From the NCBI GenBank assembly GCA_021161545.1, contig JAGHAJ010000136.1, positions 1 through 9,013 of the forward strand: a stretch of DNA of 9,013 nt, written 5' to 3'. The position numbers and the translations under genes were made by a program. Below, in pieces: positions 1-8,748 of the stretch. Numbering within the stretch: position 1 is the first letter of the stretch; every line of letters starts with the position of its first letter. A model generated the notes under the pieces. It made no database searches, was not told the DNA's origin, and saw nothing but the letters and a program-made list of their open reading frames with translations. This DNA is from Synergistota bacterium (GTDB lineage: Bacteria; Synergistota; JAGHAJ01).

Positions 1-242
1 CTAAGCAATGCAACTGAAGAAGCGGGGCGCTTTATGCCTGCAGCTTTCCCCAACATCTCCTTAGAATCAACTAATTCTACTTTCACGCCCATCCTACCAG
101 CTACATCTAACAGCTCAGTAAATATTCTATCTTCTATATCTTTGGCTATTATCACCAACTCTGCCTCTCCTCTATTAATCGCCCTTTTAACTTGATTTAG
201 TCCTACTACCCTCTTTTTCCTAACCAGGCCGGTAAGTACCAC
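1..242 (-). CDS. rplGB: L7Ae-like K-turn RNA-binding ribosomal protein, 3' end cut by window
   Basis: Seen: reading leftwards from a GTG at 242, 80 codons stay open to the window edge. An in-frame TAG at 252-254 limits the start, and purine-rich GAGGTAGG (251-258) just upstream fits a ribosome binding site, so GTG is the best start. The product looks like a complete small L7Ae/YbxF fold. It has basic RKKRVVG (8-14), then the RNA-contact segment G14-L-N16-Q-V-K, helix AINRGEAELVIIAKD (21-35), strand VKVELVD (53-59) and the signature LGKAAGI (64-70). Known: this family (B. subtilis YbxF, about 82 residues) binds kink-turn RNA and associates with the ribosome; its gene commonly lies between rpoC and rpsL. 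Only a few codons are probably missing. Inference: it opens the str operon, continuing left with rpsL, rpsG, fusA and tuf. It is 88 bases downstream of rpoC and has its own promoter. The family call is firm; the precise cellular role is not. Confidence 0.87.
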   Translation of the reverse strand, partial: MVLTGLVRKKRVVGLNQVKRAINRGEAELVIIAKDIEDRIFTELLDVAGRMGVKVELVDSKEMLGKAAGIKRPASSVALL

Positions 243-330: not shown

Positions 331-3300
331 CTACCCCTCTGCCTCGTCTCCACCGAAGATATCCTGTTGCTGAGGCATTTTTTCCTCTTCTTCTCCTTTG
401 GCTTTCACTACAACTTTTCTATACTTGCGCAAACCTGTTCCCGCAGGTATGTAATGTCCTATTATAACATTCTCTTTGAGCCCTTTCAAGTCATCATACA
501 TACCGTTGACAGCAGCTTTAGTAAGCACATGTGTTGTCTGCTGGAAAGAAGCTGCCGAAAGGAAACTCTCTGTGGACAAAGATGCCTTTGAGATTCCATG
601 CAACATTGGTTTCGCCCTTGCTTTCCTTTTCTTACGTCTAAGAAGTCCCACATTTTCCTGCACTTTTATAACCTCTACCGTCTCTTGAATAGGTCTAATA
701 GTAATCTCATCTACATTAGCGCTCGCAATCTGTCTTATTGCCTTCTGATTCAACTCTTGACCCGCCGGAAGAATAACCTCCCCAGAAACAGCGTCAAAAG
801 CTGGTAGTGTTAAGACATTACCATAAGCAATGTCTGAGAGAACCTCAAATCTAAGATCACTAATTAACATCTCCGAATCCTCAAGCACTACCTTCTCAAC
901 CCTGTTCTCTAATATCTCATCAACCACTGTAGGTTCCAAGACAGAACCTTGTCTGGCAATAACCGTTTCATCCACAACAATATCTTCCGCAATCTCCTTT
1001 CCCCATGCCTTATCCAAGATAGCTTTATGCAACAGGTCTGGTATATACAGCGATTCTACTTTCTTCCACACCTTAACACTTGACACATTACTTTTAGCTA
1101 TCTTATCAACTATTGACCTTTCCAAAACAGTATTTGCACTCGCTATAAGTTCCCCACTCTCCTCATCAACCACATCTTCTGCCAGCACATTTCCCACAAA
1201 TGACTTCAATACCCTAACATCCTTAGCTACTATCCACTCCGCACCTTTTATCTTGGAAATTATCTCATCCGCTACCTGAGAATTAATGTTCTTCCTACCA
1301 CTCAAATCCAGCCCATCCATCCATACCTTTTCCAAAATGTGAGACTTGAACTCCATTTCTCCAACTATATACTTCACATCTATCCCATCCATGCCAAGTT
1401 CTATCTCACTAATTGGACTATCAACAGATATAATCTTTGCAAATGCTTCAGGCGACAGTTCCTCGCCCCTCTTTAAGAACTCCACTTCACCACTACGGTC
1501 TTTAACGAAACCAAGAACTTTTCTACCAACTACCTCTTTATACTCCTCTTCCTCTATCCTCTCATTCATTTCATCTATAAGAGCGTTCTGTCTATTAAAT
1601 TCATCAACACGCACAACATATCCAGGCAGCAACTCCGTGTCACCTTCATCTATAATCTTAACTTTATCCGACGGTGCTATCTTACGAGTAATAACCTCTA
1701 TATGTTTATCAGATATGGTAACTCCCTGAGAGAGATAAACCTTCTGAACTTCATCTACTATATACTTCTGCACCGCTTTTAACCCTTTTATATCAAGAAG
1801 CTTATTAGGGTCTATATAGCCCGTCGTTAGCTGCTGTCCGGCCTCCACCTCATCTCCAACATCCACAAGGATTCGCGCATTGGACGGCACATTATACACC
1901 TTGGAGAGTTCTTCATCTTCCAAAGAAGTAATAATAAGCTTCTTGCCCCTTTCAGCCTCCTTTATCTGAGAGACTATGCCATCTATTTCTGATATAATGG
2001 CTTCTCTCTTTGGTTTTCTTAACTCAAACAACTGTTCAACCCTCGGAAGACCTTGAGTTATATCTTCTCCCTTTATCCTTATTCCACCCGTGTGGAATGT
2101 CCTCAGAGTAAGCTGTGTACCCGGTTCTCCTATAGACTGAGCAGAAACAATTCCGACAGCTTCTCCTATATTCACAGGCCTTCCCAATGCAAGGTCTCTA
2201 CCATAGCACTTAGTACAGATACCCCTCTTAGACTTACATGTCAAAGGAGAACGAATCTTTACCTTCTTTACACCCGCTTGTTCTATCTTCTTGGCAAGCT
2301 CTTTTGTTATTTCTTCATTGGCATGAACTATAACCTCCCCATCTGGTGTCCTTACATCTTCTGCAGCATACCTACCTGTAATCCTATCCGCAAGCGACAT
2401 AAGTTCCCCACCAAACTCATCCTTTATAGCCTCAAAATATATACCATCTGTAGTGCCACAATCCTCCTCAGTAACCATTATATCTTGAGCAACATCTATA
2501 AGCCTTCTTGTAAGGTAGCCTGACTTGGACGTTCTCAAAGCAGTATCTGCTAATCCCTTTCTGGCACCATGTGTGGATATAAAGTACTCTAAAACGCTTA
2601 ACCCTTCTCTAAAATTAGAGAGTATAGGGTATTCTATAATCTTACCTGATGGGTTAGCCATCAATCCTCTCATACCAGCCATCTGTGTTAGCTGCCTCAC
2701 ACTACCTCTTGCACCAGATTTCACCATAATTTTAAGAGGATTAAGCTCATCCAAGCTTCTAAGGATAACATCAGCAACAGTATCTGCAGCTTTAGTCCAT
2801 ATAGACTCTATCTTCTCCTCTCTTTCATCATCCGTAATAATCCCCTTATCATACTGTTCTGCGACCACTTTCTCACTCTTGTGTGCTTCATCTATAACAT
2901 CCCATTTCTCCTTGGGAACTTTAACATCCGTTATAGAGATTGTCAAACCAAACTTTGTTGCCATATGAAACCCCAGTTCTTTTAGGGCATCCAACGTACC
3001 AACCATAACATCTGGTCCAAACTTTTCATATCCCTCTCTTAATATCTTCAACAACTTCTTCTTATCTACGACATCGTTAACAAACTCAAACCCCTTGGGC
3101 AACGCTTCGTTAAACAATATCCTTCCCACTGTAGTTTCAAAAAATCCATTATCAGTGCGCACCTTTATGCGTGCATGCAATCCTAACTTTCCATATTCAT
3201 ATGCCGTAAGTGCATCATCAAAACTGTAAAAATGAGAACCTTCACCTTTTTCTCCATCAACTATAAGTGTCATATAGTACATCCCTAACACCATGTCCTG

Positions 3301-5301
3301 TGTCGGTGTAACTATAGGACCACCGTGTGCGGGGGAAAGCAGATTACGCGAAGAGAGCATAATTAACCTACTTTCCGCCTGCGCATCTATAGAAAGAGGT
3401 ACATGCACAGCCATCTGGTCACCATCAAAGTCTGCATTAAAAGCCGTACAGACAAGCGGGTGAATCTGTATAGCCTTACCCTCTATCAAAACAGGCTCAA
3501 ATGCTTGGATTCCAAGCCTGTGAAGCGTAGGAGCTCTATTTAGTAACACAGGATGTTCCTTTATTACTTCCTCCAATACATCCCACACTTCTGGCCTGCC
3601 TTTTTCTATCATCTTCCTTGCACTCTTTATATTGCTGACAAATCCCTTTTCTGTCAGCTTATTCATAACAAAAGGTTTAAAAAGCTCAAGTGCCATTTGC
3701 CTTGGAAGTCCACACTGATGCAACTTCAGTTTTGGACCAACTACTATAACAGACCTACCAGAGTAATCAACCCTCTTCCCCAGCAGGTTTTGCCTGAACC
3801 GACCTTTTTTTCCACTCAGCATATCGCTTAAAGACTTAAGCGGCCTTCCAGAAGCATTTACAACCATCTTACCCCTTCTACCATTGTCTATCAAAGCATC
3901 AACTGATTCCTGTAACATCCTCTTTTCACTCTTAACTATAATATCCGGCGCCCTGAGATCTATAAGCTTCTTTAACCTTATATTCCTATTTATAACCCTT
4001 CTATAAAGGTCATTCAGGTCAGAGCTGGCAAACCTACCACCGTCAAGCTGAACCATCGGTCTTAAGTCTGGTGGTATAACTGGTAGAACTTCCAAGACCA
4101 TCCACTCAGGTCTATTTCCAGATTTTATGAAGGCATTAACTACTTCCAATCTCTTTATGAGCTTGCTTCTTTTCTGCTTAGAGGCATTCTTAAGGGCACC
4201 TCGAATCTCACTTGCAAGTGCTTCTAAATCCACATCTTCTAAAAGCCTTTTTATTGCCTCAGCCCCCATCCCCGCCTCAAAGGATTTGTCATAGAGTTTA
4301 TATGTCTCAACTTCTCTCTCAAGGAGTATTTGCCCTTTGTGAGTAGATGTATTTCCAGGGTTTATCACTACATACGCAGGATCTTCTATATTGACATTCT
4401 CTTTCTCCACTTCAAACCTCCCCGGATACCTGTAGCTGTATATCTTTAGCTCTCTTGAAGAAATTATGTCATCCTTTTTAAACGGAAGTTTCGCAACATA
4501 GTTCACTACAAACATCTCTTTACCACTATGCGTGAATCTCTCTACCTTTATGTAATCCTTGGCTTGCTTACCCATATTCTCCAGCTCGGTAGCAGAGATA
4601 ATATCACCAACTTTATAAGGGACATCAGCTCCCAATACCACATCTACAATCTTAAAGCAAGGTTCGACTTCTACAGAGTTTTCACCATATCTTTCCTTAT
4701 ACTTATTAACCTCTTCTTCACTTATATAACTACCCGGTTCCACCACGATGTCATCTGTCCACTTAACTCTATAAGCTTCCTCTGCAACAAATTTTTTATT
4801 AAACTGTTTATGTATCTCAAACTCAGACTGTGATATGAGGTCTCCTTTATAGAGGTTTATTCCTTTCCTACTACCAGGATTTACCACTTTGTAGAGTGGC
4901 TCCAACCTACGCAAAGAGGCAAAATAAACTACCCTCTCCAGGTCCCTTGTAGGTACGTCCAATATCTGACTTATCATGCTCGGTATCCCTTTCAGATACC
5001 ATATATGAACAACAGGAGCAGCAAGTTCTATATGCCCCATCCTTTCCCTTCTGACCTTCGACTCAGTAACTTCAACCCCACACTTCTCACACACAACACC
5101 TTTGTATTTTGCCTTTTTGTACTTACCACAATAACACTCATAGTCCTTGGTAGGACCAAATATTCGCTCACAGAAAAGCCCATCCCTTTCCGGCTTTAGT
5201 GTTCTATAGTTGATAGTTTCTGCTTTCTTTACCTCTCCACGAGACCACTCTCTTATCTTCTCTGGTGACGCCAATGATATCCTTATACCTTTTATACCCA
5301 T
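331..5301 (-). CDS. rpoC: DNA-directed RNA polymerase subunit beta' with two repeat-built insertions
   Basis: Largest catalytic subunit of the core enzyme (alpha2-beta-beta'-omega), 1656 residues against about 1200 for B. subtilis and 1407 for E. coli. Seen in order: zinc site 1 with C56, C58, C71, C74 in the clamp; an N-terminal repeat insertion (about 131-308); lid, rudder and sigma-binding clamp helices with [15 protein letters not shown] (421-435) and [17 protein letters not shown] (501-517); the Mg2+-chelating NADFDGDQ (622-629) with D624, D626, D628; bridge helix region (about 900-934); zinc site 2 with C948, C1022, C1029, C1032; trigger loop [13 protein letters not shown] (1058-1070); and conserved C-terminal region H with [13 protein letters not shown] (1568-1580). 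No SI3 interrupts the trigger loop. A second insertion of about 300 residues (1256-1564) precedes region H and ends in basic [10 protein letters not shown]. The tail is acidic. The ATG lies 3 bases after the rpoB stop and 11 bases after AGGAGG, indicating translational coupling. All catalytic and zinc residues I could check are intact, so the enzyme should be active. Confidence 0.99.
610..1536 (-). repeat. Tandem-module insertion in beta' C-terminal part (residues about 1256-1564)
   Basis: Beta' normally runs in a few dozen residues from the LPG motif (here 1224-1226) to region H; here about 300 residues intervene. They contain diverged copies of a unit of about 45 residues with the pattern G-x-hydrophobic-LAED-...-SGE-hydrophobic-I-x-x-x-(G/N)-x-x-L-...-V-x-x-I-...-V-x-x-(V/I)-x-hydrophobic. 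Copies lie at 1257-1302, about 1321-1365 (degenerate), 1367-1413 ([20 protein letters not shown]), 1431-1474 ([20 protein letters not shown]) and 1491-1537 ([20 protein letters not shown]). The key glycines 1370, 1434 and 1494 are 64 and 60 residues apart. The linkers also look alike ([24 protein letters not shown]). The unit matches the normal beta' segment 974-1017. By eye I associate it with the beta-beta' module described for lineage-specific polymerase inserts. Alignment was done by hand. Confidence 0.8.
2251..2382 (-). other. Canonical copy of the module next to beta' zinc site 2 (residues 974-1017)
   Basis: [20 protein letters not shown] (974-993), then a helix [10 protein letters not shown] and strand VKKVKIRS, lead directly into the zinc-binding C1022 and C1029-x-x-C1032. 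This unit is present in ordinary Firmicutes-type beta' at the same place and is the best template for recognising the extra copies nearer the C-terminus. Confidence 0.75.
4378..4911 (-). repeat. N-terminal repeat insertion in beta' (residues about 131-308)
   Basis: In compact beta' proteins a segment like YFASYVV-DPGNT leads directly to MGAEAI. Here about 178 extra residues lie between YFASL (126-130) and [11 protein letters not shown] (309-319). They resolve by eye into four diverged copies of the normal unit at 309-350. The pattern is an aromatic residue with a hydrophobic strand, then KGD-(L/I)-IS-x-x-E, then a basic/aromatic helix. Copies: 137-176 ([12 protein letters not shown]), 177-215 ([14 protein letters not shown]), 216-263 ([13 protein letters not shown]) and 264-308 ([15 protein letters not shown]). 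Comparable insertions at this site made of sandwich-barrel repeats are known in Thermus and Thermotoga beta'. Repeat boundaries are approximate. Confidence 0.75.
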
Positions 5302-5304
5302 TAC

Positions 5305-8300
5305 CTATCTTTCCTCCTCTGATTTAAGGATAACCTCTGTCAAAGAGTCCCTCTTCTCTTCTCTGGTCTCTTCCTCATCCGGTTCTTCTTCAACCTCAAC
5401 ATCCAGAGCAAGTCCTTGCATCTCCTTAACCAGAACCTTAAACGACTCCGGCACACCAACGCTACTTATCTGATTTCCCTTAACTACAGACTCATAAGCT
5501 TTAACCCTTCCATCTATGTCATCAGACTTTATAGTAAGCATTTCCTGGAGTGTACTTGCTGCACCATATCCTTCTAATGCCCACACTTCCATCTCTCCAA
5601 ATCTCTGACCACCAAACTGCGCTTTCCCTCCAAGTGGTTGCTGAGTTATCAAGGAATATGGACCTATTGAACGCGCATGAATCTTATCATCAACAAGATG
5701 TATGAGCTTCATCATATAGATATAACCGACTACAACGGGATGGTCAAATGATTCACCTGTCCTTCCGTCATACAAGATGCTCTTACCTTCAGGTGATATC
5801 CACCCATATTTCTCAGAAAGCTCCCTGAGTCCTTCCAACACTTTGTCCACCTCAATACCGTCAAACACAGGCGTAGCAACATACACACCTTTATCCTTTG
5901 CAATAAAACCAAGGTGCGTTTCCAGAACCTGTCCAAGGTTCATCCTTGATGGAACTCCAAGAGGATTTAACACTATATCAACGGGCGTTCCATCAGGTAA
6001 GAATGGCATATCCTCTTCAGGCATAATCCTCGAAATAACACCCTTGTTTCCATGCCTACCTGAAAGTTTATCCCCAACAGACACCTTTCTCATCTGCGCA
6101 ACATAGACTTTTACCATCTTGTTAACGCCTGGAGGTAAACTATCGCTGTTCTCTTTGGAAAACACCTTTACATAAACCACTTTTCCACCTTCGCCATACG
6201 GAACCCTTAACGATGTATCCCTCACCTCTCTCGCCTTATCTCCAAATATAGCCCTTAAAAGCCTTTCCTCTGCACTCAGATCACTCTCTCCCTTTGGTGT
6301 AATCTTACCTACCAATATACTACCAGATTTTACCTCCGCTCCAACCCTGACAATACCATTCTCATCAAGGTCCCTCAACGCATCCTCACCTACATTTGGT
6401 ATATCCCTCGTTATTTCCTCCGGACCCAATTTTGTATCTCTCGCCTCAACTTCATACTCTTCTATGTGTATAGAGCTAAAAACATCTTCTTTTACCAGCC
6501 TCTCGCTTATCAAGATAGCATCTTCGTAGTTATACCCTTCCCAAGGCATGAACGCCACCAACAGGTTTCTACCAAGTGCAAGCTCGCCACCATCCATAGA
6601 AGGACCATCAGCTATAACCTGACCTTTAAATACCTTATCTCCTTTCTTTACTATCGGCTTCTGGTCTATACATGTCCCCTGATTTGATCGCCTGAACCTC
6701 AACAGGTTGTATTCGTCCTTTGTACCATCCTCTCTATCTATAGCAATCTTATTTCCAGAGACATAGCTCACTACTCCATCTGCCTTAGCCACAACAAGCA
6801 TACCTGAGTCATAAGCAGCTTTTTGTTCCATACCCGTTCCAACAAGTGGTGCCTCCGGTTTTATCAATGGAACAGACTGTCTTTGCATGTTCGAGCCCAT
6901 TAGTGCTCTGTTTGCATCATCATGTTCCAGAAACGGTATCAAAGACGTAGAAACACTAACTACTTGCTTAGGAGAGACGTCCATATAGTCTATCTTTTCA
7001 GACGGAACCATGATAAGTTCTCCCCTGTGTCTGGCTACAACACTCTCCTTGGCAAGCCTACCATCTTTTATCTCTTCATTTGCTTGAGCAATGAAAAACT
7101 CATCTTCCTCATCAGCAGAGAGATAAACCACCTCATCCGTAACAACCCCATTTACAACCTTACGGTAAGGGGTTCTTATAAAACCGAGTTCATCAACCTT
7201 AGAGTATGTAGTTAAAGAAACCACCAAACCTATATTAGGCCCTTCAGGTGTCTCTATAGGACATATCCTACCATAATGGGTATAGTGGACATCCCTTGCC
7301 TCAAAACCTGCCCTTTCTCTACTCAACCCACCAGGACCAAGAGCACTCAACCTCCTCTTGTTAGTGAGCTCTGCCAAAGGATTTGTCTGGTCCATGAACT
7401 GAGAGAGCTGACTACTGCCAAAAAACTCCCTGACAGAAGCAACAACAGGTCTTACATTAAGCAGGTTTTGTGGGGTTGCTGTTGCAAGGTCAGGAAATGT
7501 GGACATTCTGTCCCGCACATTCTTACTCATCCTGAGGAAACCTACTCTTAAATGTCCCTCGAGCAATTCCCCAACAGCACGCACCCGCCTGTTACCAAGG
7601 TGATCTATATCATCTACATCTTCATAGCCATCCTTCAGTTTCAATAGGTGCTTTAAAATTGCATCAAGGTCTTCCAATGTTATGATATGTGTATCCACTG
7701 AAACATCTATCTTGAGCTTCTTATTCATCTTAAACCTTCCAACTACACCAAGACTATACCTTCTATCATTTAAGAACATCTCTCTTATGAGTTCCTTTGC
7801 ATTCTCTATCCTGATTGGGTCTGTTGGACGGAGTCTCGAGAACAACTCAAGGTATGCCTCCTCCTGCGTCTTAGTGGGATCAAGATGCAAAGTATTAGCC
7901 AAAACAGGGTCCACATCATACACCCTTATAGAAGATACATTGTTGTCAAAAAGTGCAGAAACTTCATCAGATCCGAGGTATCTTCCACGCTCCACAACAA
8001 GTGCCCCCGTGGAAGAATTGTAAACATTTTCAGCCACCACTCTGCCCTTCACTTCATCTGCCACCACAGATACCTCTTCCACACCTTTAGAAAACGATTC
8101 TAATATCTCAATATTATCTTTTCTCCCAAACACCTTCAACAGTATAGTATAAGGTATCTTCTTTCTCCTATCTATCTTTGCATAAAGCACATCATTACTC
8201 AACTCAAACTCTATCCATGAACCATGCTGAGGAATAATCTTTCCCGTATATATGGTGCTACCAGAAGTAGATTTTTCCTCCAAAAAGTATATTCCGTAAG

Positions 8301-8748
8301 AACGGGTTAACTGACTCACAACTACTCTCTCAACACCATTGATAATGAACGTACCTCTACTCGTCATCAGTGGAATTTCGCCAAAAAATACTTCTTCTTC
8401 CTTTATCTCGCCTGTTTCCCTATCCTCCAGCCTCATCTTAGCATACAGTGGAGCCTGATAGTTTACATCCTGTTCTAAGGCATCCCACTCACTTATGCGC
8501 GGTTCTCCTATCCTATATTCAACAAAATCCAGTGAAAATCTACCATTAAAGCTCTCAATAGGAAATGTATGACTGAACAACCACTGAAGACCAATGTTTT
8601 CGCGCTTGGAGGGTTCCACATCCTTTTGGAGAAACTTCTTAAAAGAAGTGAGCTGAAGCTCAATCAAGTTAGGTATCTCCAGCACTTCCCTGATCCTATT
8701 AAAAAATTGTCTTTCTCTCATTTCGGTCAAAAGACTCACCTCACCCAT
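5305..8748 (-). CDS. rpoB: DNA-directed RNA polymerase subunit beta
   Basis: Second catalytic core subunit, 1147 residues from the ATG (1141 if the TTG at 8730 is used). Seen: protrusion start [12 protein letters not shown] (21-32); [17 protein letters not shown] (131-147); a lobe segment with one copy of the repeat module (232-279); [17 protein letters not shown] (380-396); rifampicin region [11 protein letters not shown] (447-457) and [18 protein letters not shown] (464-481); [13 protein letters not shown] (496-508); [12 protein letters not shown] (734-745) with E742 and D743 near the catalytic metal; [14 protein letters not shown] (891-904) with K894 and K902, equivalent to E. coli K1065 and K1073; and clamp motif [20 protein letters not shown] (1040-1059). 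It lacks the E. coli-type SI2, so the enzyme is compact. The C-terminus (1118-1147) is strongly acidic. The longest frame is given, but a good ribosome binding site favours the TTG. N463 replaces the usual His of the rifampicin pocket. It is co-transcribed with rpoC from a promoter just upstream. Confidence 0.99.
5313..5318 (-). promoter_or_regulatory. Ribosome binding site of rpoC within the end of rpoB
   Basis: The minus strand carries AGGAGG inside the last rpoB codons (Ser-Glu-Glu-Glu-Arg-stop), 11 bases before the rpoC ATG. The rpoB TAG is only 3 bases before that ATG, so a ribosome ending rpoB can restart on rpoC. This fits balanced synthesis of the two subunits. Confidence 0.8.
7912..8055 (-). 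other. Copy of the beta-beta' type module inside the beta lobe (residues 232-279)
   Basis: Beta residues 232-279 contain [20 protein letters not shown] followed by an L-x-x-D-E-V helix and [10 protein letters not shown]. This is the same strand-loop-strand-helix-strand pattern as beta' 974-1017 and the modules of the beta' C-terminal insertion; NVSSIRV here parallels NVSSVKV at beta' 1405-1411. It sits at the lobe site where other lineages also carry insertions. Homology is judged by eye. Confidence 0.6.
8736..8742 (-). promoter_or_regulatory. rpoB: Ribosome binding site pointing to a TTG start for rpoB
   Basis: GAGGTGA on the minus strand is a 7-base match to the extended anti-SD complement AGGAGGTGA. 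It lies 5 bases before TTG at 8728-8730 (codon 7 of the longest frame) and 14 bases before the next ATG (8719-8721). The first ATG (8746-8748) has AT-rich TTTTAAATACCC before it and no such site. I favour the TTG, at perhaps 60 percent. Confidence 0.6.

Follow-up and report, generated by a model that had tools for sequence, protein, structure and literature searches.

The rpoBC locus and the insertion site

The stretch of DNA analysed here (the window, 9,013 nt of contig JAGHAJ010000136.1 from a Synergistota bacterium) carries rpoB and rpoC, and the features discussed below are collected in Table 1. The window RpoC is encoded by a single intact open reading frame with no frameshift. Directly after rpoC lies a partial gene (window 3-242, minus strand) that by eye resembles an L7Ae-type ribosomal protein. 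The gene order rpoB-rpoC-L7Ae is known from Gram-positive bacteria.

Table 1. Features of the window, with residue ranges in the encoded subunits and the evidence for each
Feature	Position	Strand	Evidence
rpoC, beta' subunit, 1656 aa	331..5301	minus	ORF; Pfam RNA_pol_Rpb1_1 to Rpb1_5
rpoB	5305-8748	minus	ORF
N-half of host domain sLC/bD7 (residues 1203-1248), LPG included	1558..1695	minus	family alignment; counterpart of the sheet at M. smegmatis beta' 1164-1210
Module M1 (residues 1250-1312), most diverged copy	1366..1554	minus	hhalign in register with beta BEAN and M5, probability 17-32%
Module M2 (residues 1313-1370)	1192..1365	minus	hhalign: M5 95%, beta BEAN 92%, bD5 73%
Module M3 (residues 1366-1428)	1018..1206	minus	hhalign: beta BEAN 97.5%, bD5 96.7%; predicted fold pLDDT 86
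Module M4 (residues 1424-1486)	844..1032	minus	hhalign: M5 96%, M3 75-82%
Module M5 (residues 1485-1548)	658..849	minus	hhalign: bD5 97.8%, beta BEAN 96.3%
Basic return segment (residues 1549-1567), second half of sLC/bD7	601..657	minus	VR[RK]LR pattern kept in relatives
HGISKASL, start of region H / switch 1	577..600	minus	sequence
Second insertion, sLC repeats N1-N4 in bD2 (residues 134-345)	4267..4902	minus	hhalign: N1-N4 97%, N1-N2 95%, N2-N3 95%
Resident BEAN domain of beta' (bD5, residues 966-1024), relative of the modules	2230..2406	minus	hhalign; Table 2 of PMC11515920
BEAN/BBM2 module in beta (RpoB residues 226-285), relative of the modules	7894..8073	minus	hhalign

From LPG to the G of GISKASL the window RpoC has 344 residues, whereas a Bacilli beta' has 33, so that the site has gained 311 aa net. 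This agrees with a preliminary description of the DNA, which had noted about 300 extra beta' residues just before region H. Its placement of HGISKASL at residue 1568 and of the insertion at window 610-1536 (RpoC residues 1256-1564) also agrees with the sequence, while LPG starts at residue 1225 and not at 1224 as given there. Alignment to Bacilli and to solved beta' chains places the insertion inside the small-left-claw (sLC) domain bD7, between IEVI..LPG and GITKASL, which is beta' insertion site (vii). A basic run, counted in that description as following the repeated units, is indeed present at residue 1555, but it is part of the conserved return segment of the host domain and not of the array.

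The host domain is a small three-stranded sheet. In the HelD complex of M. smegmatis, the matching sheet is found in the downstream part of the primary channel, where it meets helix alpha16 of HelD, while the other claw, beta'-NCD, is contacted at its sheet by the tip of the HelD clamp-opening domain (PMC7749160).

Five modules related to BEAN/BBM2 domains

Family profiles were cut at the window residues from an alignment of the window RpoC and 34 relatives, and were compared by hhalign. Five modules, M1-M5, were found in register across the insertion, each with a conserved core of about 45 residues and a period, including a linker helix, of about 58. The preliminary description had seen about five diverged copies of a unit of about 45 residues; the in-register copies and the core length hold, whereas the true period is longer and M1 is only a weak copy. 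The kinship of the array to beta' 974-1017 and beta 232-279, raised in the same description, is confirmed by profile-profile comparison, with 97.8% between M5 and the resident BEAN of bD5 and 97.5% between M3 and the BEAN of beta.

A 2024 survey accepts a BEAN domain when HHalign gives it a probability of more than 70% against a BEAN profile from RNA polymerase (PMC11515920). M3 and M5 exceed this level with the values just given and M2 with 92%, while M4 gives about 50% directly and 96% to M5. M1 gives 31-32% to the beta BEAN in the same register, a weak match whose best value falls below that level. Control profiles from the N-terminal repeats and from the HABAS domain bD6 gave at most 7.5% against the modules. 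A HABAS identity of the modules was considered and rejected, the probability to bD6 HABAS being only 0.3-5.6%. For M2-M5 the true score was unmatched by any of 60 column shuffles per pair, and for M4 none of 100 further shuffles per comparison reached it. With M1, 0-1 of 100 shuffles reached the score in each of three comparisons, although in the 60-shuffle test against the beta BEAN the best shuffle scored higher (24.5 against 20.0).

In a single-sequence phmmer search, residues 1367-1431 matched E. coli beta i4 (E 5e-4). No Pfam family covers the insert. A search for tandem repeats at the DNA level found none in the window, and the module copies are therefore old. The TGD/E motif is described in the survey's text as typical of BEAN domains in beta and absent from those outside beta (PMC11515920); at this position M3 and M5 of the window read SGE, and one relative (L003) reads TGK in M3. 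By their profiles, M2-M5 are clearly to be classed as BEAN/BBM2 domains (CATH 3.90.105.10), and M1 is likely a fifth module.

Predicted structure of module M3

An AlphaFold model of M3 was built from a 13-row alignment of presumed relatives, consisting of M3, the other modules of the window, its bD5 and beta BEAN domains, and bD5 of six other bacteria. The AF2 model reached a pLDDT of 86. All 50 listed Foldseek matches were RNA polymerase entries (probability 0.99-1.00, none with an E-value below 0.001), led by beta i4 and the beta' jaw BEAN. A second structural aligner gave Z 8.0-8.1 to E. coli beta 226-343 over 64 residues (rmsd 2.4) and Z of about 7 to the beta' jaw, and also listed MoeA, a protein named as containing a BEAN domain in the survey's text (PMC11515920). 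By the aligner's own note a Z near 8 is middling when taken alone, and it is the agreement with the sequence profiles that carries weight. The model supports an alpha/beta fold of M3 shared with beta i4 and the beta' jaw, as support and not as independent proof, because the alignment was itself built from the homology hypothesis. The structure prediction proposed in the preliminary description thus gave a BEAN-like fold for M3, whereas a single-sequence prediction of the whole insert reached a pLDDT of only 38 and is not interpreted; M3 alone was modelled confidently.

Distribution and conservation of the insertion

The insert was present in all 34 aligned Synergistota relatives, and a single-sequence search recovered it from 161 of the phylum's 185 genomes; most of the genomes missed belong to one diverged genus, in which the aligned members have the insert. 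For 32 of 35 sequences the length from LPG to GITKA is 330-360 residues. As such, the insert is a phylum-wide trait of Synergistota, kept with nearly constant length. The preliminary description had expected only a short loop at this site in most beta' proteins and had left open how widespread an insertion there might be. The bD7 site is free of insertions in all 60 listed solved beta' chains, and none was found in Bacillota, where among the matches listed (290 genomes) all run unbroken across it; both results support the rarity of an insertion at this exact site.

The fragmented state of the genome (288 contigs, 82% complete) could raise the suspicion of an assembly chimera, or of a recent foreign insertion in one metagenome bin. 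The presence of this insert at the identical site in 34 further Synergistota genomes refutes this, while the G+C content of the insert (0.41, against 0.42 for the rest of rpoC) and the absence of a frameshift also speak against it, and we give it practically no credence. Taken together, the module identity, the site, the phylum-wide presence and the conserved length are, on the strength of profiles and models, almost certainly correct.

Several irregularities were noted among the relatives. In the RpoC of one diverged genus (L065, L066 and L067), about 30-95 additional residues, acidic and of low complexity, break up M5. One Synergistota genome (G043) shows two rpoC genes, on contigs C9 and C4 (L023 and L074), each with the insert, which may reflect duplication or a mixture of strains. 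An rpoC gene with an in-frame TGA (G027:C78) and another split into two frames (G011:C1) are perhaps assembly errors.

Apparent second RpoC matches in six genomes (L068-L073, from G052, G020, G022, G059, G021 and G051) were rejected as copies of rpoC, since they represent a second, divergent RNA polymerase in which beta and beta' are fused in one polypeptide of 1437-1726 aa. The beta' domains (Rpb1_2, 4, 5) come after the beta domains (Rpb2_3, Rpb2_6), and NADFDGD is present together with a trigger-loop-like IGERGTQLAMKRFH. In L071 a CARF-HD protein (PADLOC, E 5.5e-213) is encoded next to the fused polymerase, and an RtcR-like sigma-54 activator lies downstream. No description of a CARF-linked fused polymerase was found in the literature searched, and it is worth a separate study.

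Sequence within the insert drifts quickly, identity to the window being 14-28% across the 34 relatives compared with 48-76% in the flanks. Such fast drift at an unchanging length is in keeping with a structural scaffold that makes few contacts with partners. The drift, and the acidic stretches of 30-95 aa that one genus adds in M5, would also suit a nearly neutral expansion tolerated by the structure, in which duplicated modules persist without a specific partner since their removal is rarely clean. One would then expect some lineages to have lost or trimmed the insert, however, and the nearly fixed length across the phylum and the invariant positions N15, G83, F87, W181 and R305 (insert numbering) argue against it; we consider neutrality rather unlikely, though deserving of some weight.

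A second insertion in bD2

In Synergistota the other small left claw, bD2, is enlarged as well; in the window RpoC it holds four sLC copies, the last of them (N4) being the resident one. This domain is homologous to the one hosting the BEAN array, and N4 matches the bD7 sLC at 66-75% in hhalign. Two homologous claws beside the downstream DNA thus appear to be enlarged, each with different modules, where the spatial part of this statement draws on a mycobacterial structure. It is conceivable that both small left claws were expanded at the downstream DNA gate, bD2 by sLC repeats and bD7 by five BEAN modules, into a phylum-specific gate or factor platform governing DNA loading in a manner unlike model polymerases, but we hold this to be unlikely.

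Charge and proposed role of the array

The insert (residues 1232-1540) has a net charge of -27 in the window and of -7 to -38 in the family, with a mean of -21, while residues 1541-1566 carry +7 in the window and +1 to +7 in the family. The preliminary description had suggested that the array touches nucleic acid or a lineage-specific factor. The acidity of the array makes contact with nucleic acid by the array itself seem unlikely and a protein partner, as a candidate, more plausible. Binding of downstream DNA or nascent RNA, which would stabilise an open or elongation complex, might be argued from the host sheet adjoining the downstream DNA channel (PMC7749160) and from the basic return segment with its charge of +7. 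Against this stand the acidic modules, and the basic run belongs to the return segment of the host domain, outside the modules, so that we judge such binding to be quite improbable.

We favour instead an appendage, on the side of the clamp, that serves docking or gating, on the precedent of E. coli beta i4/SI1 and the acidity of the array. The segment is a lineage-specific insertion of tandem BEAN (BBM2) modules, five with the likely M1, within the small left claw bD7; beta' gained it no later than the last common ancestor of Synergistota, and it has been retained since. Each module would comprise a helix followed by a small alpha/beta unit, and together they may form a chain projecting, next to the downstream DNA, from that side of the cleft on which the clamp lies, a position suggested by a mycobacterial structure. 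Without any catalytic part, the chain would serve to dock a protein or to gate the clamp, in the way that TraR acts through the contact surface of E. coli beta i4; by this analogy, we regard such a chain of modules and its role as reasonably probable. In E. coli most of the interface between TraR and the lobe is formed with SI1, the BBM2-type beta i4, and deletion of SI1 nearly abolishes activation by TraR (PMC6970531).

Comparison with known insertions in RNA polymerase

For a large insertion in an enzyme central to the cell, shared by an entire phylum, the anatomy is here resolved down to its modules; the listed solved polymerases have no insertion at that site. The two homologous claw domains, each enlarged by its own module type, allow ideas on the origin and persistence of surface appendages of polymerase to be tested.

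The existence of the insert is probably already known. An RpoC insert of more than 300 aa was reportedly described by Bhandari and Gupta in 2012 as a signature of Synergistetes; phylum and size agree with the insert of the window. Insertions in the middle of bD7 are listed in the text of the 2024 survey, which also reports that rare variants among Firmicutes and the DST group, Synergistetes included, carry BEAN, HABAS or sLC inserts at bD2, bD4, bD5 and bD7 (PMC11515920). Its bD7 inserts share the insertion site of the window, and the parts of its main text that deal with them give neither a module count nor species. The five-module anatomy and its pairing with the bD2 repeats may thus be new detail.

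That insertions of such modules in polymerase are known in principle, as the preliminary description had stated, is borne out by the tandem BBM2/BEAN insertions described in PMC2939025 and in the survey's text (PMC11515920). The BEAN of bD5, in the jaw region of all bacteria, is the same module and has M5 as its closest relative in the insert, but is a single resident module of bacterial beta' and no insertion array. E. coli beta i4/SI1, with two tandem BBM2 modules in the beta lobe, belongs to the same module family by profile, phmmer and predicted fold, and is likewise a tandem surface insertion in polymerase. It differs in subunit, in site and in having two modules where five are found here; one to six BBM2 repeats have been predicted at the beta i4 site (cited in PMC2939025). 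The Thermus NCD1 and actinobacterial beta'-NCD insertions in bD2 are similarly lineage-specific and lie in the homologous small-left-claw domain of the clamp. They occupy the other claw, however, and are likened to the array by site and not by sequence, while bD2 of the window has sLC repeats of its own.
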